This document shows positions 38,724-63,434 of a DNA stretch of 64,000 bases, one piece after another. Under the pieces are notes generated by a model. The model was not told where the DNA came from. It did not search any database and saw nothing but the letters and a program-made list of their open reading frames with translations. Made by a program: the position numbers and the translations under genes. The stretch comes from Massilibacillus massiliensis (GTDB lineage: Bacteria > Bacillota > Negativicutes > FLKF01), in contig NZ_LT575483.1 in the NCBI RefSeq assembly GCF_900086705.1, positions 1,507,534-1,571,533 on the forward strand, read 5' to 3'. How positions within the stretch are numbered: the stretch's first letter is position 1; each line of letters opens with the position of its first letter.

Positions 38724-38954
38724 TCACAACTGTACACTTCTCACCAGATTTTTTAAACCGACGCTTGACTTTGGCAGTGTCTGTTTCATGTCTCTGCAGC
38801 AAACAACTCCTAAACTGAAATCTGCTGCATACCTATCTGCTTTGAATATAGCATAAATAGGAAATAAATACACTGTGATTTCTTTACAATTATTTTTATA
38901 AAAACAACCCAAAAATGGTGCTACGTAACACTGTTCGGCAGTACGACTTCTCAT
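38724..38954 (-). CDS. Possible small Cys-rich protein coupled to the PAS-PucR gene
   Basis: A 76-aa frame whose ATG overlaps the upstream stop as ATGA, with AGGGAG six to seven bases before it, which is a proper ribosome-binding site. The N-terminal half is hydrophobic and has several cysteines (QCYVAPFLGCFYKNNC), the rest is basic. No family recognised. Coupling and ribosome-binding site argue for it; composition does not clearly. Confidence 0.3.
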   Translation of the reverse strand: MRSRTAEQCYVAPFLGCFYKNNCKEITVYLFPIYAIFKADRYAADFSLGVVCCRDMKQTLPKSSVGLKNLVRSVQL

Positions 38955-40522
38955 TTTCTGCTCCCTTGCCGGCGATAATTTAATCGGTAAAGCTTCAGTG
39001 CCAGCGACAAAGTGAGCCTGACTTCATATTGTTCCAGATTGACATCCAAAATCCCCTCAATCCGACGTTTGCGCACAATTACGGTATTATAATGCAGGTA
39101 CAACTTGTTGGCAACATCCTTCAAATGCACACTCTTTAATATTTCCTCCAGCGTATACAACAACTGACTATCCTTTTCCCGATCATAGGCAATCAGCGGT
39201 CCCAGATAGCGTTCTACAAAATCCGACGAATCCTCATCATGCAAAAGCCGCTCCAGCAGTTGATAAATTCCAATATTCTTAAATTCACTAATAACGGCTT
39301 CCTCTGCCTCACTACAGGCAATGACAAGCGCACTCTGCGCCTGACGATAACTCCGTTTCAGACCTTCTATGTCATTGTAAACTCCGCCGATGCCAATTTT
39401 GATTTTAAAATTGGCATCGTATGCCAAAATACGTTCCCGAAGCCACTCACCGGCCTGCAAAGTCTCCTGAAAATGCTTTGAACGGAAAAACACCCCAATA
39501 TCCCCATGGCAATTGTAAATAAACAACAGCGGATCACTGCTTAAAAGTTCCACAACACTAAAAAATAAATTTTTATTGCGATGCGTCCGCTTTCCCGCCT
39601 CCAAATGCACAATGCAGCAAAAATAATCCTCGCTAAAATTTAATTCCTGAATATTCGAAAGAATAGAATTTTTCGTGAATTCTTCTTCACTGCCCGTAAT
39701 GATCGCCTGAAATAATTCAGTACGCTGTTTAAACAGATACATCAATTCCGTTTTCTTTCGATCCCGTTCCTTGCCGGTTACATCCAGGATCAGACTGGCC
39801 ACCAGTTTTTTCCCATTGAGCTGAACCTCCAGCGGCGTCGATTTGCCCTCAACCCAGTAATCACCGTTCGGTGTGGTTAATTTATAGATAGAATGCTGCA
39901 TTTCTCCGGTATGGATCGCATGTTTTATTTTACGTAAAATCATATCGGCCTGACTCTTGACTAAAAACTCATGCAAGCACCGCCCTTTAATATGAGGAAA
40001 TGCGGTATATTCACTGATAAAATCAATGACGCGGCCATCCTCATTGATAATCAGCCCAACGGTTTTTACCGCTTTGCAAAAATAATGACAATAATCTTTC
40101 AGTAAATCCTGGTATAACTCCTTTTCCTTTTGCTGCGTAATATCTCTTGCCACTGTCAAAAATTCAGTACACCCATTATCGGGATCAGAAATTCTCGTCG
40201 TTTCAACCTGCAGCCACACAAAAATTCCATCCTTTTTTCGCAGCCGGCACTCCACGCGTCGCTTCTCAGGCAAAACACCAGCCTTGGTCGGCCGATAAAG
40301 TTTTTTAACCGCCCGCATATCCTCCTGTTCAAGAAATTCATAGACCGAATGCCCTACAACCTCTTCCACCGCATAGCCCAATATATCCTCTACAGCTGGA
40401 GAAGCAAAACGACAAATACCGCCAAAACGAAAAATAGCGACGATATCATTCATACTCTCAATCAGTTTCTTAAAAAAGTCATCTGCCTTGTACCCATATT
40501 TCCCCTCGTTTATTTCCATCAC
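38951..40522 (-). CDS. PAS domain transcriptional regulator with PucR-type HTH (523 aa)
   Basis: Sensory transcription factor. PAS about residues 15-130 (ESMNDIVAIFRFGGICRFAS; ends LTVARDITQQKEKE), a second PAS-like unit about 140-255 (IINEDGRVIDFISEYTAFPH), a central GGDEF-like/CdaR-type region about 270-420 (IKIGIGGVYNDIEGLKRSYR), and a C-terminal PucR-family HTH (LKDVANKLYLHYNTVIVRKR). This domain set is common in regulators of carbon or purine use. The signal is unknown. It could control the neighbouring chemoreceptor and c-di-GMP genes. Start: ATG/GTG near 40522 with GGAAGG upstream. Confidence 0.85.
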   Translation of the reverse strand: MMEINEGKYGYKADDFFKKLIESMNDIVAIFRFGGICRFASPAVEDILGYAVEEVVGHSVYEFLEQEDMRAVKKLYRPTKAGVLPEKRRVECRLRKKDGIFVWLQVETTRISDPDNGCTEFLTVARDITQQKEKELYQDLLKDYCHYFCKAVKTVGLIINEDGRVIDFISEYTAFPHIKGRCLHEFLVKSQADMILRKIKHAIHTGEMQHSIYKLTTPNGDYWVEGKSTPLEVQLNGKKLVASLILDVTGKERDRKKTELMYLFKQRTELFQAIITGSEEEFTKNSILSNIQELNFSEDYFCCIVHLEAGKRTHRNKNLFFSVVELLSSDPLLFIYNCHGDIGVFFRSKHFQETLQAGEWLRERILAYDANFKIKIGIGGVYNDIEGLKRSYRQAQSALVIACSEAEEAVISEFKNIGIYQLLERLLHDEDSSDFVERYLGPLIAYDREKDSQLLYTLEEILKSVHLKDVANKLYLHYNTVIVRKRRIEGILDVNLEQYEVRLTLSLALKLYRLNYRRQGSRK

Positions 40523-41080: not shown

Positions 41081-41109
41081 ATTATATGACACAAATAACA
41101 TCTCGTCAA
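41081..41109 (-). promoter_or_regulatory. Consensus sigma-A promoter, divergent from the XRE gene
   Basis: TTGACG (41104-41109) and TATAAT (41081-41086) with exactly 17 bp between them on the minus strand. This is the best housekeeping-type promoter in the window. It directs transcription away from the XRE gene. Confidence 0.75.
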
Positions 41110-41131
41110 CACTTATGTTGTTATTTGTGTC
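41088..41131. promoter_or_regulatory. Palindromic operator between divergent promoter and XRE gene
   Basis: 13-bp perfect arms GACACAAATAACA and TGTTATTTGTGTC, separated by 18 bp. One arm lies between the -35 and -10 boxes of the minus-strand promoter, the other just upstream of the -35. A protein bound here would block that promoter. The adjacent XRE-family regulator is the natural candidate, acting also on its own gene. Confidence 0.65.
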
Positions 41132-41176: not shown

Positions 41177-41602
41177 ATGTTAGATTCATCTTTCTCAAAA
41201 CAAGAACTTGGCAGACGCGTTGCAATGATACGCGGTAACCATACGCAAAAAGAACTAGCTTCGGCCATCGGTGTCAGCCGAAGCTACATCAGCAACATTG
41301 AGCAGGGCCTCACTGCACCAAGTCTGGAAATTCTAATCAATATCGCAAAACAGTACCGCAGCTCGCTCGATTGGCTGATTTACGGAGACAGCTGTACGAT
41401 TCTCGTGCCCAAAGTGCGCGGACAACAGGCTGACCCGCCGAACGCTTTACTGTGCCGGGGCACAAAAGCAGCAAAACCGGAACCTGCGTGCACTGAACTT
41501 TCACCGGAGATTATGCAGATTTTCAGAAATCTCATGCCAGATGAGCAGGGATTGGTTATTGAGTTCATAAAATTGTTGTCCTCATACAAAACAAAAAGCT
41601 AA
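41177..41602 (+). CDS. XRE-family helix-turn-helix regulator (141 aa)
   Basis: DNA-binding protein with a classic Cro/C1-type HTH at about residues 11-65 (GRRVAMIRGNHTQKELASAIGVSRSYISNIEQG..., quoted in part as QKELASAIGVSRSYISNIEQ). A C-terminal region of about 70 residues without recognised domain follows (TELSPEIMQIFRNLMPDEQG). AAGGAG lies 9 nt before the ATG. It is one of only two larger genes on the plus strand, and a palindromic operator lies 46 bp upstream. Likely autoregulator and repressor of the divergent short transcript. It may also act on the neighbouring chemoreceptors. Confidence 0.9.
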   Translation: MLDSSFSKQELGRRVAMIRGNHTQKELASAIGVSRSYISNIEQGLTAPSLEILINIAKQYRSSLDWLIYGDSCTILVPKVRGQQADPPNALLCRGTKAAKPEPACTELSPEIMQIFRNLMPDEQGLVIEFIKLLSSYKTKS

Positions 41603-42335: not shown

Positions 42336-42384
42336 ATATTGTTATCTGGTAACAATATTTTTAACTAAGCAGGTGTGCTATAAT
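42336..42384 (+). promoter_or_regulatory. Promoter and palindromic box of chemoreceptor 2
   Basis: ATTGTTATCTGGTAACAAT (42338-42356; core TTGTTA-N5-TAACAA) lies 22 bp upstream of TATAAT (42379-42384). There is no -35 hexamer at the usual place, which the box partly covers. The same box and spacing occur before chemoreceptors 3 and 4. The centre falls near -43 to -44, a position typical for an activator touching RNA polymerase. Confidence 0.7.
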
Positions 42385-42423
42385 TTTAACAGAGAATTTT
42401 CTTCTGTAGTATAGTTTTAAAAT

Positions 42424-42555
42424 ATGGAGCAAATCATGCAGCCTGTGCAAATAGCTAAAAAATGCTCGAATTGCACTGCCGCCCTACCGGACTTCATCAC
42501 GTTTCATACTATAGTCCAGAAGAAAATCCATGCACAATTACGTAGAAAAGGATAG
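42424..42555 (+). CDS. Possible 43-aa leader peptide of chemoreceptor 2
   Basis: Frame MEQIMQPVQIAKKCSNCTAA and 23 more residues, running from about 30 nt after the predicted transcript start to just inside the ribosome-binding site of the chemoreceptor gene (stop 6 nt before its ATG). Contains a CSNC motif, potentially metal- or redox-sensitive. No clear ribosome-binding site of its own. Tentative. Confidence 0.3.
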   Translation: MEQIMQPVQIAKKCSNCTAALPDFITFHTIVQKKIHAQLRRKG

Positions 42556-42561
42556 GTTAAT

Positions 42562-44535
42562 ATGAAAAGTATCCAAACAAAAATGACAGTCATCATTTTA
42601 TCGATCTTTCTGATATCGCTTGCCGCCTTGGGCGGAATCAGCTATTGGAAAGCCAGAAGCATCGTGATGAACGGTGTACATGAGGATTTACAGCAACGAA
42701 CGACCGGCGCTGCTGCCATGGCAAGTGACTGGTTAACAACCTATCAGGCAGAATTAGCCATCCTGGCTGCAACGCCCGCGCTGCACAGCGGCAATATAGA
42801 ACAAATCGTCCCGGCGTTAATCAGCACCAAACACACAAATCCCAAATACGATTCCGTTGTATATGTGGATGCGAAAGGGGATTCGATCAATGAAAGCCGC
42901 TTTGAAGGCAGCGTAGCAAATGAAATCTTCTTCAAAACGGCCATGAGCGGAAAACCCTTTATCTCCGATCCCGGCACCTCGCTTGCCACAGGAAAAACCG
43001 TTGTTTTTATTTCTACACCGATCCTGCGGGATAACAAAACCATCGGCGTAGTCTTTGCAACGGTTCCCATAGATGAACTTCAGGAAAATATTTTGGCTAT
43101 TAAAGTGGCAAAAACAGGCTTTGCCGTCGTTACACAAAAAGATGGTCTCTTCATCATTCACCCCGATAAGAATGTTGCAATGAAAGTCAATCCGTTGAAA
43201 GATGCCAACGCCGATGCCGGCCGCAAACTGCTAAGTTCAAAGATGCAAAACGCCGAGACCGGCACCGTGGAATCAACGATAGAAGGCATCGACCGCTATG
43301 TTGCCTTCGCCCCTGTCGTGGGAACCGACTGGTCACTTGCGATAAGCGTTCCGATAGAGGAAGTGCTGTCGGAAGTAAACGAATTAACCATCATCACTGT
43401 GATCGTCAGCCTAATCGTACTGCTGGCAACCGGTATTCTAGTGATGTGGTATGTCCGCCGCATGGTCAAACCGCTGATTGTGCTGGAAGCGGCCGCAAGT
43501 CAAATCGCAGCCGGCGATCTGTCGCAAGTGAAGCTCGATACACAAACCGATGACGAAATCGGCCGATTGGGGCAGAGCTTTACCCTCATGCTGGAAAACC
43601 TGCGCAAGCTGGTCAAAGATACCACGCTGATGAGCCAGCATGTTGCCGCATCCTCTGAAGAGCTGACAGCCAGCGCATCGCAGGCAGCACAGGCAGCCAC
43701 ACAGGTTTCTTCCACGATCACCCATGTGGCCGAAGGTGCAGATGAACAATTCACTGCCGCCAACGATGCCGCCAAACTTGTTGCACAGATCACCGCCGGA
43801 CTGCAAACCATGGCAAAAAACGCCGATGAAATGACCCACGCTTCGGTGCAGGCTGCTGATCGGGCCAATGCCGGCAACGATTCGGTCGAAAAGGTTGTTG
43901 CACAAATGCAGGCAATTGCCGCCTCTGCGCAGGCCGTAAATGACGCAATCACCAAGCTCAACAATAAATCCAAAGAAATCGGCCAGATTGTAGGTACCAT
44001 TGCCGGAATTGCCGGACAAACGAATTTACTGGCCTTAAATGCGGCGATTGAAGCCGCCAGAGCCGGCGAACAAGGGCGTGGTTTCGCCGTCGTTGCTGAA
44101 GAAGTCCGCAAACTGGCAGAAGAATCAGAATCAGCGACCAAGCAGATTGCCGCTTTAGTCGGCGAGATTCAGTCGGATACCAGCCATGCCGTCAACATGA
44201 TGGAGCAGGGCGCAAGCGATGTCGGAACTGGTTCAGCAATGGTGACAGAAGCCGGGCAGGCCTTCCGCGAAATTGCCGAACTGGTAACCGGTGTATCCGA
44301 TCAGGTCAATGAAGTTTCCGGCACTGTACAGGAATTGGTTGCCGGAAATCAGCAAATTGTAGATGCGGTGGAAAAGATTGATGCGCTGAGCAAAACTTTT
44401 TCCACCGAAGCACAAGGCGCATCCTCGTCAACAGAAGAACAGCTCGCATCAGCAGAAGAAATTTCTTCTTCCAGCGAAGTTCTCGCAAAAATGGCACAGG
44501 ATCTGCAAACCGCAGTAGCAAAATTTCGCTTATAA
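42562..44535 (+). CDS. Methyl-accepting chemotaxis protein 2 (dCache type)
   Basis: Transmembrane chemoreceptor. TM1 about 9-29, dCache sensor about 35-270 ([58 protein letters not shown]), TM2 about 278-300, HAMP about 302-355, and the cytoplasmic signalling domain with [20 protein letters not shown]. The only receptor on the plus strand. RBS AAAAGGA. No C-terminal pentapeptide. Shares a bidirectional terminator with the convergent cheW. The ligand is not predictable; the dCache fold often binds amino acids or carboxylates. Confidence 0.95.
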
Positions 44536-44568
44536 AAATAAGCGGCAGACACCGACATCGGTGCACTG

Positions 44569-44605
44569 AAAAACCGGCTTACGAACATTCGCAAGCCGGT
44601 TTTTT
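44569..44605. terminator. Bidirectional terminator between convergent genes
   Basis: AAAAACCGGCTT / AAGCCGGTTTTT, a 12-bp stem with a 12-nt loop, ending in T-runs on both strands. It serves chemoreceptor 2 on the plus strand and the chemoreceptor 3-cheW operon on the minus strand. Confidence 0.85.
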
Positions 44606-44628
44606 CTGTACCCGGATAGTTTTTTTAA

Positions 44629-45066
44629 TTAATTCGTCGGATACAGATCTATCGCTTCCTCCTTAAACAAACGATCCATATCGAGTAAAATAAGCAGCCG
44701 TTCCCCGGCTTTGCCAATCCCGCGGATTCCCTCACCAACATTCGGCGGCGGTCCCTCTATCGCACTCTGTGCCAGCATCAGTACCTCCGTAACCTCATCA
44801 ACGACAACACCAAAATTTTGTTTATTTGTCTCCACAATCAATGCTTTTTTACCGCCATCGGCGATTTTTCCATCAATCGCCAGACGCTGCGCGAGATTAA
44901 GCACCGGTATTGTATTGCCGCGTAAATTGATAACACCTTCCATATATTCCGGTACATTCGGCAGCCGTGTTGCGCCGCTGTACTGAATGATTTCCCTCAC
45001 CTGCGTAATCGTAATTGCATATTCTTCCTGTGCAAGCTTAAAAAGTACAAACTGTTCCTCTGCCAT
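44629..45066 (-). CDS. cheW: Chemotaxis coupling protein CheW
   Basis: Adaptor that links chemoreceptors to the CheA kinase. Typical two-barrel CheW: EEQFVLFKLAQEEYAITITQ at the start, IIQYSGATRLPNVPEYMEGV, INLRGNTIPVLNL, and LILLDMDRLF at the end. 145 aa, normal. ATG at 45066 is chosen (AGGGGG upstream); a longer frame runs back into the chemoreceptor gene but is spurious. It lies 22 bp downstream of chemoreceptor 3, so receptor and coupler are made together. No CheA, CheY, CheB or CheR lies in the window. Confidence 0.95.
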   Translation of the reverse strand: MAEEQFVLFKLAQEEYAITITQVREIIQYSGATRLPNVPEYMEGVINLRGNTIPVLNLAQRLAIDGKIADGGKKALIVETNKQNFGVVVDEVTEVLMLAQSAIEGPPPNVGEGIRGIGKAGERLLILLDMDRLFKEEAIDLYPTN

Positions 45067-45088
45067 CACTGAACATCCCCCTATGCAT

Positions 45089-46804
45089 TTATATCCTGAA
45101 TTTTGCGACCGCTGTCTGGAGTTCCTGTGCCAGATTAGACAAGGCCTGGCTGGAAGAAGCGATCTCTTCCACGGATGCCAATTGCTCCTGTGTAGCCGCC
45201 GAAACACTCTGCGCTTCGCCGGATGACTGTTTGCTCAGGGCATCGATTTTTGCCGCTGCATCTACGATCTGCTGACTGCCGCCGGCCATTTGCTGAACTG
45301 CCGCTGAAATTTCCTGCACCCGATCCGATCCCTGCGACACCAGCCGAACGATCTCGCCAAAAGCGGTACCGGCATGATTGACAACCTCTGTACCGGTCTT
45401 TACTTCACGCGTCCCCTCATTCATCGCGATAACCGCCTGGTCTGTCTCTTGCTGAATTTCATAGATCAATGCGGCAATTTTCTTTGCGGCTTCCTGTGAC
45501 TGCTCCGCCAGCTTTCTGACCTCCTCTGCAACAACGGCGAAACCTCTGCCCTGCTCTCCGGCTCTGGCTGCCTCAATCGCCGCATTTAAGGCCAGCAAAT
45601 TTGTCTGTCCGGCGATCCCGGAAATCGTATCGACAATTTGCCCAATCTCTTTGGAACGTTCACCAAGTTTTGTAACGACCACGGCCGAACTGTTCACCGT
45701 ACGTTCCACCTGCCGCATTTGCTCTACCGCTTCATCAATCTTTTTGCCGCCCTCCTGCGCTTGTTCAGCGGCCACTGCGGACTGCTCCGCCACCTGATTC
45801 GTATTGGCCGCGACCTGCTGAATCCCTGCCGACATTTGCTCCACAATCTCCGAAGCTTCTGCCGCAGCCGTCAGTTGCTCGCTGGCGCCACTTGCCACAT
45901 TTGCAATCGAGGTTGCAACCTGATTGGCCGCCTGTGCCGACTGCTGTGAACTGGCAGTCAGTTCTTCCGACGACGCCGACACCATTTCTGTTGATTCGGC
46001 AATTTTTTGGATCAGACTGCGCAGATTATCCCGCATAGCCGCAAGGGCATCCGCCAGTTTCCCAAGTTCATCCTTTCGCTTAAAGCTGCGTCCCTGTCCG
46101 ATGAAGTCTCCGGCTGCGAACTGCTGTGCAGCCGTTACCATGATACCTAACGGTTTCGTAATCGTCTTTGAAATATAATAACCGATTCCCAAAAGAATAA
46201 AAAAAGCCGCCGCTAAAATAAACAGCGTAATCTGATTCGCTCGATGAAAAGCAATCTGATTCGCTTCGTTTATTTCATCGGCACGCTTGGAAAAATACTG
46301 CGACAGAGTTTCCAGCGAAGTCATAAATTCAACGGATAATGGATAGGCATGTGAAAGATACAAGGAATAGGCCTCCGCATCCTTGTTCTGCATAGATAAC
46401 GCCAGTACCGCCTTTCGCGCATCACGGTATTTCTCCTTCGCCTCATCCACCTTGCTTAGCAGTGCCTGCCCCTCCGATGAATACCCGATTTTATGAAGTT
46501 CTGCATAATCCTCATCCGTGTCCTGGGTAACGGATTGAATCACAGCGCTCAGCTCTTTACTCCTTTTCTCATCTTTTGTGAGCATCAGTTCTACAACAGC
46601 AGCATTCGCCTTACCAACATCTCCACGGATATCATTGGTGATTTTCACCGGTATCAGGCGATTATGATACATATCGTCTATTTTGGCATCAGAATCTTCG
46701 AGATAATAATATCCCATACCGCCAACCACGGCCAAAAGCAGCAAAGCAGCGGATACAAATACACCTAATTTTTTTGCAACGTTTAAATTATCAAAATAAT
46801 CCAA
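45089..46804 (-). CDS. Methyl-accepting chemotaxis protein 3 (4HB-type sensor)
   Basis: Chemoreceptor with a helical-bundle sensor. TM1 about residues 12-31 ([20 protein letters not shown]), a periplasmic four-helix-bundle region about 35-185 ([20 protein letters not shown], family 4HB_MCP), TM2 about 190-210, HAMP, then the signalling domain ([20 protein letters not shown]). TTG at 46804 is favoured because GGAGG lies 8 nt upstream and this gives [14 protein letters not shown], a usual receptor start; the frame is open for 23 more codons without a better site. Operon with cheW. 571 aa. Confidence 0.93.
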
Positions 46805-46932
46805 TTTTTCTTCCTCCAATTCGATAAATTCTCGCCCAAAAATACACCCATTACCGTCGCCACACCAAAACACGCATCATCTCCGTTCACGGGTTGGGCT
46901 GCAAAACTCAGACTATTACTTCCATTAACTTT

Positions 46933-46980
46933 ATTTTACCTGACTGCTCTTCGTCTGTATATTGTAACCCAATTACAAAT
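46933..46980 (-). promoter_or_regulatory. Promoter and palindromic box of chemoreceptor 3-cheW
   Basis: On the minus strand ATTTGTAATTGGGTTACAAT (core TTGTAA-N5-TTACAA, 46961-46980) lies 22 bp upstream of TAAAAT (46933-46938). Same arrangement as before chemoreceptors 2 and 4, with A and T exchanged in the inner positions of both arms, as expected for a maintained palindrome. No -35 hexamer at the normal distance. Confidence 0.6.
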
Positions 46981-47080
46981 TTCCTCCGCAGACAGCTGCA
47001 GGAAATGTACCGGTGTAACACAAGCAATACCACAGTTACGCGTGCATTCAGCCGATATTGCATAAAAATTTCCCTTGATT

Positions 47081-47121
47081 AAAAAAAGCCCCACCCGATT
47101 CATATCATCAGTTGGGGCTTT
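47081..47121 (-). terminator. Terminator of chemoreceptor 4
   Basis: AAAGCCCCA / TGGGGCTTT, a 9-bp stem with a 19-nt loop, followed on the minus strand by further T. About 60 bp past the stop. Confidence 0.75.
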
Positions 47122-47183
47122 ACCTGTTTCTCTATGGTCCGGTTGTTTCGGCATAATGCCAGTATCCGCGAAATGAAAAGAAG

Positions 47184-48971
47184 TTAAATTTTAAACTTAT
47201 CCACCCACCGATTCAATTCCTCTGCCATATCTGTCAAAACGGCACTTGACGCAGTAATCTCTTCCAGAGAAGCGGACTGTTCATCAATCGCCGAGGAGAT
47301 CTGTGTCGTTTCAAGTGAAATATCTCTTGAAATCGCCTCGACTTCCTGCACAGCCTTCTCCGCACTTTGGCTAACCTCAGCCGTATTTTTCATCTGCGCA
47401 ATGGTATGATGTATCTCCGTAAGCATCTGTGTAATAAGCAGTGATATCTTTTTAAAAGACGCCCCTGCTTCCTGTACAACCGCAGTGCCTGTTTTTACCT
47501 CTTTTGCACCGACATCCATTGCCTCAATCGCTTTTCCCGCATCAATATGAATGTCTTGAATCAGCTCCGTAATCTGCTTGGATGCCTCATTCGACTGCTC
47601 GGCAAGCAGGCGTACCTCATCGGCAACAACGGCAAAGCCTTTTCCATGTTCACCGGCGCGCGCCGCTTCAATCGCCGCATTTAAGGCCAACAAATTCGTC
47701 TGGGAGGCAATTTTGGAAATAGTTTCCGCCATAATAGAAATTTGCTTTGATCTTTCGCCCAAATTTTTAACAACAGTCCCGGAATCCATAACGGTATGTT
47801 CAATCTGCGCCATCTGCTGAATCGTACGGTCGATATTTTGTTCGCCCACCTGCGCGGCCTTGACTACCTCCCCGGATTGATCGACCATCTCCTGAGAATT
47901 GGTCATCATCGTCGTCATGGCTTCCGAAGTTTTTAAAACCGCCGCCGCTGCATCCTTTACAAGCGTCAGTTGTCTTCCTGTACCGTTGTCCACACTTCCG
48001 ATAGAGGTCACGATCAAATCTGACGCATGCGCAGATTGCTCCATCCCCGCCTGCAGCTGTTCAGCAGTCTGGGCAACCTGTCCGGCATAGGACTTGGTCT
48101 GCTTAACCACAGAACTTAAGTTTTGCACCATTTCGTTAAACGCCTGCGCCAAATCGCCAATACTATCCTGCGCACCTGAATCGATCCGTTCCACGCTCAG
48201 ATTGCCGGCAGTGACCTTCTGCGCAACCTGCGCCATCGGACGAATGCGTTTGGTGATTTTACTATTGAGAAACAGCGACGTCAGCATTGCCAGAATTAAA
48301 ATAAACAAATACGTTGAAATCGAATACGTCAATTGATTGATTTGTTCTTCATCCAACTGCTTTTGATATACCTGTACCATTGCCTCTAAATCATCGACAT
48401 AATTCCCGGTCCCGATTGACCATTGCCACGGCGTAAACCCCGCACTATAAGAACGTTTCGGTAAAGGCGTCTGCGTCGGATCAACATCTTTCGGCCGAGG
48501 ATAATAATATTCGGAAAATCCACCTTCTGCCTGCTTTGCATTCTCAATAAATGTCTGAACAAAAAGATTTCCCTTTGCATCCTTCGCACCTGTACGTACC
48601 TTGCCTATGACGGCATTTCCGGCACCGGACGACAGCAGGACACCGTCAAACGAATCCGCCCAGAACACACCGCTTTTATCCTCACCATAGCGGGCATCAC
48701 GAACGACATTCAATGCCAATTTTTTCGCTTCTTCCTCCGTCATCAACCCTTTCTGCGCCCGTTCATAGTACGCATGAATTTGATTGATCACCGTTTGCAC
48801 CTGTTTTTTTATGCTATCATCATAATCAGCAAAAAGTAGTTGCCGGTAACTCGCCAATCGCGCCTCTTTTTGCTGATTGATTGCATACGCTTCGTAAGTA
48901 CCAAGTAATATTGTGACAATTGACATAACCAAAATAACAATAGCAATATCGCGATTGAGCTTAGAAAACAT
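47184..48971 (-). CDS. Methyl-accepting chemotaxis protein 4 (sCache type)
   Basis: Transmembrane chemoreceptor. TM1 about 8-28, single-Cache (sCache_2-like) sensor about 35-190 ([52 protein letters not shown], the last being characteristic), TM2 about 205-225, HAMP, signalling domain with [20 protein letters not shown] and [14 protein letters not shown]. Receptors with this sensor often bind small carboxylates. ATG at 48971 has AAGGAG 7 nt upstream; upstream in-frame starts are not supported. More diverged from the other three receptors in its signalling domain. 595 aa. Confidence 0.94.
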
Positions 48972-49016
48972 AAGCATACTCCTTTTCCATTCTCTGATTA
49001 TCATCTATATTCGTAT

Positions 49017-49063
49017 ATGATAACATAAAAATTAACTTGATTCTATTGTTATCTGATAACAAT
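49017..49063 (-). promoter_or_regulatory. Promoter and palindromic box of chemoreceptor 4
   Basis: ATTGTTATCAGATAACAAT on the minus strand (49045-49063), a perfect 9-1-9 palindrome, lies 22 bp upstream of TATCAT (49017-49022). It differs from the chemoreceptor 2 box only in the centre and one arm base. No -35 hexamer. Confidence 0.7.
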
Positions 49064-61664: not shown

Positions 61665-62945
61665 TTAACAAGTACACTGTTTTGTGTGGTAGTCTAGCAT
61701 GGAGATTAACCCGAACTGAGTTAGTCTCTTCTTGGTTATTGCAAAGTGTAATGTATATCCCCCACACACTCTGGCGTACCCTTTTCGGCTATACGCCGTG
61801 GCTCTAGCAAGCTCTTTGTTAATCCCCAATTTTCTAAGATTCTTGATTTTATTTTTCGGTGTTTTCCAATGTTTCCAAATGCACATTCGAAGTCGGTATC
61901 GTATCGCTTTATCTGTCTCTCGACACAGATATTTCATATTGCCTATTCGGAAATAATTAATCCATCCTCTTATCAACTGATTCAGCTTTTCTACTTTCAC
62001 CTTATTACTAACTCCCCAACTCCGGCTTGTTAGTGTTTTCATTTTCTTCTTGAACTTTTCTACCGATTTTGTATGGGGCTTTGCTTTGTATTGTTTAGCA
62101 TATATATCGAAGTAAAAGCCAAATCCCAAATATTTTATTCCTTTTGGTTTGTCTGTCTTGCTTTTTGTCATATTGACTTTTAGTCCGAGCTTTTCTTCTA
62201 TAAATGCTGTGAGATTTCTCATCACTCGTCTTGCCGCCATTTCGCTTCCAACCATAATAATACAGTCATCTGCGTATCTCACAAAATTCAATCCTCGCTT
62301 TTCCATTTCCTTGTCCAATTCATTGAGCACGATATTTGCTAGCAGGGGAGAGATATTTCCCCCCTGTGGTGTTCCGATTACCGATTTCTTATATTCATCA
62401 TCAATCATGATTCCGCTGGCTAAAAACTTTCTTACAATAGAGCTTACCTCCCCATCTTTAATCGTTCTTCCTATTATCGTCATCAGCTTGTCATGATTTA
62501 CTGTGTCAAAGAACTTTTCAAGATCTATATCCACAATCCAGTCATTTCCTTCATTCATCATTTCTAATGCCTTTACAATTGCCTGTTGTGCACATCGATT
62601 TGGTCGGAATCCATAGCTGTGTTCATGAAACTGTTTCTCAAATATCGGTGTTAGCACCTGCGCCACTGCCTGTTGTACAAATCGGTCTGTGACTGTTGGT
62701 ACTCCAAGATTTCTTATTCCTCCGTCTGCTTTTGGTATTTCAACCCTTTTTACTGGTTGCGGTTTGTAAGCTCTTGTTCGCAGTTGTTCTTGGATGATTT
62801 CGCCATTCTTTTCAAGGTGTTTTCCAAGTTCGGTGTACTTCATTCCATCCATTCCTTCTGCACCTTTATTTTGTATGACTTGCAGATATGCCTGATTGAG
62901 ATTATCTTTGCTTAATATTTGTTCCATTAGGCTATTTGTGTTCAT
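61665..62945 (-). CDS. ltrA: Group II intron reverse transcriptase/maturase (LtrA-like, no endonuclease)
   Basis: Intron-encoded protein that aids splicing and target-primed reverse transcription. RT motifs: KPQPVKRVEIPKADGGIRNL, DIDLEKFFDTVNHDKLM, GTPQGGNISPLLANIVLNEL, catalytic FVRYADDCIIM, then the maturase (X) domain with LNQLIRGWINYFRIGNMKYL. No HNH endonuclease domain, so insertion likely uses single-stranded or terminator DNA. ATG at 62945 (AAAGGA upstream) is favoured; longer frame possible. 426 aa. No frameshift or stop seen. Confidence 0.93.
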   Translation of the reverse strand: MNTNSLMEQILSKDNLNQAYLQVIQNKGAEGMDGMKYTELGKHLEKNGEIIQEQLRTRAYKPQPVKRVEIPKADGGIRNLGVPTVTDRFVQQAVAQVLTPIFEKQFHEHSYGFRPNRCAQQAIVKALEMMNEGNDWIVDIDLEKFFDTVNHDKLMTIIGRTIKDGEVSSIVRKFLASGIMIDDEYKKSVIGTPQGGNISPLLANIVLNELDKEMEKRGLNFVRYADDCIIMVGSEMAARRVMRNLTAFIEEKLGLKVNMTKSKTDKPKGIKYLGFGFYFDIYAKQYKAKPHTKSVEKFKKKMKTLTSRSWGVSNKVKVEKLNQLIRGWINYFRIGNMKYLCRETDKAIRYRLRMCIWKHWKTPKNKIKNLRKLGINKELARATAYSRKGYARVCGGYTLHFAITKKRLTQFGLISMLDYHTKQCTC

Positions 62946-63434
62946 GCGTTGTTTCCTTTCCGTCCCGTTAGTTTTGACCATCCTTATCCCGATTGGTTAC
63001 GGCAGATGTTGTCTCATTTACAGTGGGGACTCTACTTCAACTGATTGATTGTTCAGCCCTTTGCTCCATTTCCATTACAGAAATTTCTTCACTACTACGG
63101 CTTATGCTGACTTCTCACAGTTTGTTGTTACTCGGTTAATGGAACCGCTGTGAGATCTCCCCGATTAAGGTGCGAACTCTTTCCCTTCATATATCCGCCG
63201 CATTTACTTCGTTCCTACAAATGTGATAGTAATTAGACTTCGCTTTGTCTTGCAAGCTTATCTCTCGGAACCCAGCCTTCTATGCGATTTCTGTCCGTCG
63301 GACCAAAGGTTTGCCTACAGCTTCCTTCAGATTCAACCTCACGATTGTCACCCTTGCTGTTCAGCTATACACTTCCCACTATCCGGGCGTATTAGGGACT
63401 TTCACCCTCAAGAGTTCGCCCATGTCGGGCGAAC

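Follow-up and report, generated by a model that had tools for sequence, protein, structure and literature searches.

Three chemoreceptor promoters of Massilibacillus massiliensis share a palindromic box, a probable local operator with a PucR-type regulator as candidate binder

Introduction

Where palindromic binding sites of PucR-type transcriptional regulators have been described, they are inverted repeats of 17-24 bp, such as the 17-bp inverted repeat of PutR and the 21-bp repeats of GabR located immediately upstream of the -35 element, and the characterised regulators of this type are activators, with B. subtilis PucR acting also as a repressor (PMC7652997). Odd palindromes have been reported for another group, the LacI-type regulators, in 4% of its members (PMC4052901). 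Here, we analysed a palindromic box with the consensus TTGTWA-N5-TWACAA, which precedes three chemoreceptor genes in a stretch of 64,000 nt from Massilibacillus massiliensis (in the following, the window; coordinates are positions in the window).

Outside a few models, little is known of how a bacterium with dozens of chemoreceptors selects those that it expresses. The 4.0 Mb genome of M. massiliensis gave 39 MCP-domain matches in a profile search. A previous reading of the window made from its letters alone (the sequence-only reading) had proposed that an activator bound near -43 co-controls three of these receptors via the box. This proposal was followed up by chance tests, by searches of the whole genome and by a comparison with 380 genomes of the class, with comparison loci taken from other families.

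Results

The box is a 17-bp dyad composed of the half-site TTGTWA on either side of a 5-nt centre, and it was found at all three places at which the sequence-only reading had put it. Before chemoreceptor 2 (42562-44535, plus strand; dCache_1-HAMP-MCPsignal), it reads ATTGTTATCTGGTAACAAT at 42338-42356 on the plus strand with the core TTGTTATCTGGTAACAA at 42339-42355 and its centre at about -44. Chemoreceptor 3 (45089-46804, minus strand; 4HB_MCP_1-HAMP-MCPsignal), with a likely TTG start after GGAGG and with cheW behind it (44629-45207, minus strand; the limits are those of the open reading frame), is preceded on the minus strand by TTGTAATTGGGTTACAAT at 46978-46961, consisting of TTGTAATTGGGTTACAA (46978-46962) plus an outer T, and in this box both arms are altered symmetrically. 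For chemoreceptor 4 (47184-48971, minus strand; sCache_2-HAMP-MCPsignal; ATG after AAAAGGAG), the minus-strand box is ATTGTTATCAGATAACAAT at 49063-49045 with the core TTGTTATCAGATAACAA at 49062-49046, and here the symmetry is longer, ATTGTTATC-A-GATAACAAT with perfect 9-bp arms and a 1-nt centre.

In all three promoters, exactly 22 nt separate the box, counted from its outer T, from a -10-like hexamer, as had been claimed. These hexamers are part of the extended -10 element TGC-TATAAT at 42376-42384 for receptor 2 (TATAAT 42379-42384, plus strand), TAAAAT at 46938-46933 for receptor 3 (minus strand), and part of the extended -10 element TGT-TATCAT at 49025-49017 for receptor 4 (TATCAT 49022-49017, minus strand). 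If the assigned hexamers act as -10 elements, the dyad is centred at about -44 in each promoter, and with its 17-19 bp it ends beside the -35 position in all three.

The match of the box across the three promoters is not due to chance. For the palindrome test, all exact 6+6 inverted repeats with gaps of 0-12 were considered in the 420 bp before each receptor. A 6+6 palindrome with the same gap and with arms within one mismatch, common to all three promoters, occurred in none of 3000 dinucleotide-preserving shuffle triples. When the box was ignored, a common -10 offset of such quality had a frequency of 5e-5 among shuffles and of 8.5e-4 when the real sequences were shifted at random.

Duplication of a promoter was rejected as the origin of the shared box, because the flanks are unrelated: between the promoters, identity amounts to 11-18 of 60 positions on the upstream side and 18-24 of 60 on the downstream side, and the 22-nt spacers share 7-9 of 22 nt, so that they are no more alike than random sequences. 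The exact box TTGTWA-N5-TWACAA has five matches in the genome, three of them at this locus; of the remaining two, one falls within a glycosyltransferase gene (L001) and one at the 3' end of mgsA (L005). A genome-wide regulon was likewise rejected, as the box is at background level outside this cluster, and the genome scan proposed with the sequence-only reading yielded a small local set at the three receptors instead. The random occurrence across the genome that would have refuted the sequence-only reading is thus half borne out. The longer dyad, with at most one mismatch, was found at only two places in the genome, before receptors 2 and 4, which argues for a tiny regulon as expected of a local regulator. 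Receptor 1 lacks the box, as the earlier reading had stated, and so do 30 further receptor promoters of the genome; it was not found before the closest paralogue of receptor 4 either (76% identical over the sensor part, L175). Taken together, these comparisons show that the boxes are few and confined to this locus, and that gene duplication accounts neither for their origin nor for their retention. A perfect 22-bp palindrome was observed upstream of another, short receptor gene (ATTGTTATTCTAGAATAACAAT, G000:C6:1738229-1738250, L179), with the same arms as the box (ATTGTTAT) and a centre of 6 nt versus 3 nt.

Since the palindrome is not a chance match, the spacing is fixed, the flanks are non-homologous and other receptors lack the box, we consider it probable that one local dimeric regulator co-controls receptor 2, receptor 3-cheW and receptor 4.

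Beyond the box, the promoters differ in their elements. The sequence reads TG one base 5' of the -10 hexamer, i.e. an extended -10 element, at receptors 2 and 4, and extended -10 promoters do not require a -35 element. The earlier statement that none of the promoters has a -35 hexamer holds only in part. At receptor 3, a weak -35-like TATACA (4/6 positions; 46956-46961, minus strand) precedes TAAAAT with a 17-nt spacer and shares the outer T with the box; at receptor 2, a second promoter-like pair, TTAACA-18-TATAGT at 42386-42415, lies just downstream of the first -10 element.

In the class-wide comparison, ATTGTTATNNNATAACAAT with one mismatch had matches in 31 of the 380 genomes; 13 of these loci were inspected, and they resemble chance occurrences or unrelated sites. 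The upstream regions of receptor 4 homologues in other families were without the box. One locus of another family (L217, 1501-1519, G044) carries ATTGTTATTAGATAACTAT with GATAAT 22 nt further on; a receptor gene follows about 310 bp downstream. Since this receptor has a nearer good promoter, the site is probably there by chance and was not counted.

A gene for a protein with PAS, GGDEF-like and HTH_30 regions, i.e. a PucR-type regulator (38951-40519, minus strand; matches to HTH_30 and GGDEF_2), is located 1.8 kb from the first box. Its homologues gave 28 matches in 22 of the 380 genomes, the window's own gene included. In other genomes, 18 of 26 PucR-type loci have an MCP gene, a cheW gene or both within about 6 kb (L274-L277, L279, L280, L282, L283, L285, L287-L293, L298 and L299), compared with 2.4 expected from the MCP density of 663 in 85.6 Mb. 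The binomial tail of this linkage is about 1e-13, and with each genus counted once it is 3e-5 (10 of 15). At such loci of other families, the receptor or cheW gene often is the immediate neighbour in the same orientation. The regulator is close to a receptor cluster including a receptor 4 homologue in four genomes of one family (L274-L277), and at L292 the gene immediately downstream of it encodes a receptor with an N-terminus similar to that of receptor 2. Cyclic di-GMP (c-di-GMP)-I riboswitches were observed at L274 (5712-5799), L275 (5988-6075), L280 (5251-5336) and L279 (5143-5229), where they lie next to or between genes of the PucR type and those for receptors or GGDEF proteins.

Within the PucR-type loci retrieved, to which the search for the half-site AGATAATAG was limited, another motif was found. 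Promoters beside the PucR-type genes of other families carry TTATCT ... AGATAATAG, and this motif stands before the homologous target genes in these families, where the box itself was not found. In G048 and G324, AGATAATAG occurs twice, exactly 44 bp apart, and 19 nt separate the second copy from a -10-like hexamer; G011 is similar. Between the PucR-type gene and the receptor, a conserved layout was observed at L282 (5186-5515), L283 (5847-6097) and L299 (5597-5872): a TTATCT..AGATAA palindrome is followed by AGATAAT, which in L282 and L283 comes 44 bp on, and about 19 nt later by a TATAAT-like hexamer. The TTATCT core alone is shared by receptors 2 and 4, in another geometry, and was not found in the promoter of receptor 3.

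Between pucR and receptor 2, the window contains a gene for an Xre (HTH_3) regulator (41177-41602, plus strand). An inverted pair GACACAAATAACA ... TGTTATTTGTGTC at 41088-41131 is a presumed auto-operator of this regulator. A near-consensus promoter, TTGACG-17-TATAAT at 41109-41081 on the minus strand, faces pucR and has the first copy of the pair in its spacer.

Regarding further features of the window, an Rfam search for RNA elements returned a group II intron alone (61665-63348), which contains a reverse transcriptase/maturase open reading frame and adjoins a gene for a short-chain fatty acid transporter. Outer-membrane and sporulation genes agree with the class assignment.

Discussion

As the most likely course of events, a dimeric local factor would bind the 17-bp dyad just upstream of the -35 region, centred at about -44, and would thereby place receptor 2, receptor 3-cheW and receptor 4 under joint control, most likely as an activator in contact with RNA polymerase. 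No regulator had been named in the sequence-only reading; the best candidate is the PAS/PucR-type regulator encoded at 38951-40519. Since known PucR-type sites measure 17-24 bp and those of GabR lie beside the -35 element, size and place of the box fit PucR-type control. We therefore put forward this protein as the binder of the boxes, tentatively and on the grounds of gene neighbourhood and site geometry. If the promoter facing pucR and the presumed Xre operator are real, one may speculate on a chain in which Xre represses pucR and PucR acts on the receptors.

Several observations weigh against this proposal. The box was found neither before pucR itself nor before the cluster of genes that follows it immediately (GGDEF-EAL, receptor 1), and in other genomes the next gene downstream of the PucR-type gene is often the receptor. 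The promoters beside PucR-type genes in other families have the different motif described above. As to the mode of action, receptors 2 and 4 with their extended -10 elements and receptor 3 with its weak -35 element leave the missing -35 as no more than a suggestive argument for an activator, and activation is less compelling at promoters with an extended -10. Of the initial claim, co-control is thus well supported, and activation from near -43/-44 is plausible only.

A regulator encoded elsewhere in the genome, e.g. of the LacI, TetR or MarR type, could use the boxes as operators, which we regard as possible and on balance unlikely. In its geometry, the dyad corresponds to the lac operator (7+1+7 with the half-site GATAACAAT); this half-site is the right half of that operator, whose odd centre is matched as well. 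The genome encodes six LacI-family proteins. None of the six genes is within the window, the receptor 3 box TTGTAATTGGGTTACAA departs from the lac half-site, and none of the recognition helices has the YQ pair of E. coli LacI. The LacI family was rejected as binder, since none of the six genes is near and none has a fitting recognition helix. More generally, it would be less usual for a distant regulator to have three sites only and to have them in one cluster.

Local co-control by one dimeric factor might also be negative, with the boxes as repressor sites and a protein at about -44 blocking polymerase or an activator at extended -10 promoters. Both the TGn before the -10 hexamer at receptors 2 and 4 and the 4/6 match to a -35 at receptor 3 fit such repression. 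The fixed 22-nt distance and the weak -35 elements suit class-II activation better, and repressor sites usually overlap the region from -35 to +20. We judge repression unlikely, and that the bound protein acts as an activator rather than as a repressor is the outcome we favour with some confidence.

It is improbable that a true operator exists at receptors 2 and 4 only, the receptor 3 palindrome being a coincidence. The receptor 3 box does differ in both arms and in the centre, and the W of the consensus was picked after this box had been seen; for this reason, a motif derived from receptors 2 and 4 alone provides the fairest test of receptor 3. Among shuffles, 0.2% yielded a receptor 3 palindrome matching that motif, and a fraction of 5e-5 had it together with a -10 hexamer at 22 nt.

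The least probable reading, binding of the boxes by the Xre protein directly upstream of receptor 2 in the manner of lambda cI at OR2, we consider very unlikely: although Xre is the regulator nearest to the boxes, its own promoter contains TTGTTATTTGTG, 9/10 like the box half TTGTTATCTG, and Xre proteins can activate from about -42, about 8% of shuffles and 4 of 30 other receptor promoters also contain a match to the box half of at least 9/10, and the Xre family has operators of the GACAT type. Homologous xre genes of other families have the palindromes GACATCAATAGATGTC, TGACATTTATTAGTGTCA or GTACACTTATAAGTGTAC at their own -10 element; the xre promoter of the window has GACACAAATAACA in the matching place with an inverted copy 31 bp away, and the receptor boxes are without GACAY. 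Judging from this pattern, the GACACAAATAACA pair is presumably the Xre operator and distinct from the receptor box.

Control of the three receptors by one PucR-type activator would be of an ordinary type. What is apparently undescribed is that, in several families of the class, PucR-type regulators are linked to chemotaxis genes: a literature search limited to open-licence papers found no description of PucR-type control of receptors, and within the same limits the earlier remark that no described regulator has this site agrees with our search. On a broader scale, and tentatively, the loci may reflect a class-wide family of PAS-containing PucR-type activators dedicated to chemotaxis, with the box as the operator of one such system; a cytoplasmic sensor-regulator would then set which receptors enter the signalling array, and several lineages might route its output via a c-di-GMP riboswitch (L274, L275, L280). 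With a small defined operator set and a plausible dedicated regulator, receptor choice becomes testable in this lineage.

Comparison with known systems

FNR and CRP bound at -41.5 share the class-II position with the factor proposed here; their dyads are even-centred (e.g. TTGAT-N4-ATCAA), whereas the boxes are odd with a 5-nt centre. Lambda cI at OR2, a class-II case with the dimer near -42, likewise uses an odd 17-bp operator next to the -35 element, but the Xre gene at hand has another presumed operator. The lac operator and the odd operators of LacI-type regulators resemble the boxes in the odd dyad with a 1-nt centre and in the half-site GATAACAAT, which is present at receptor 4 and in one half at receptor 2; they differ in that there is no LacI-type gene nearby, that no LacI-like recognition helix was found and that receptor 3 is off this half-site. 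Moreover, the canonical LacI form is an even palindrome with a central CG, in contrast to the odd-centred boxes (PMC4052901). As for the PucR-type local activators, the known members control proline, alanine, gamma-aminobutyric acid (GABA) or purine genes and not receptors, and the homologous loci show a motif other than this box. In common with PutR, AdeR and GabR, the control proposed here would be local and exerted via an inverted repeat, those of the known regulators measuring 17-24 bp and the GabR sites lying beside the -35 element (PMC7652997), and the locus itself has an HTH_30/GGDEF-like gene 1.8 kb from the first box, the homologues of which neighbour chemotaxis genes.

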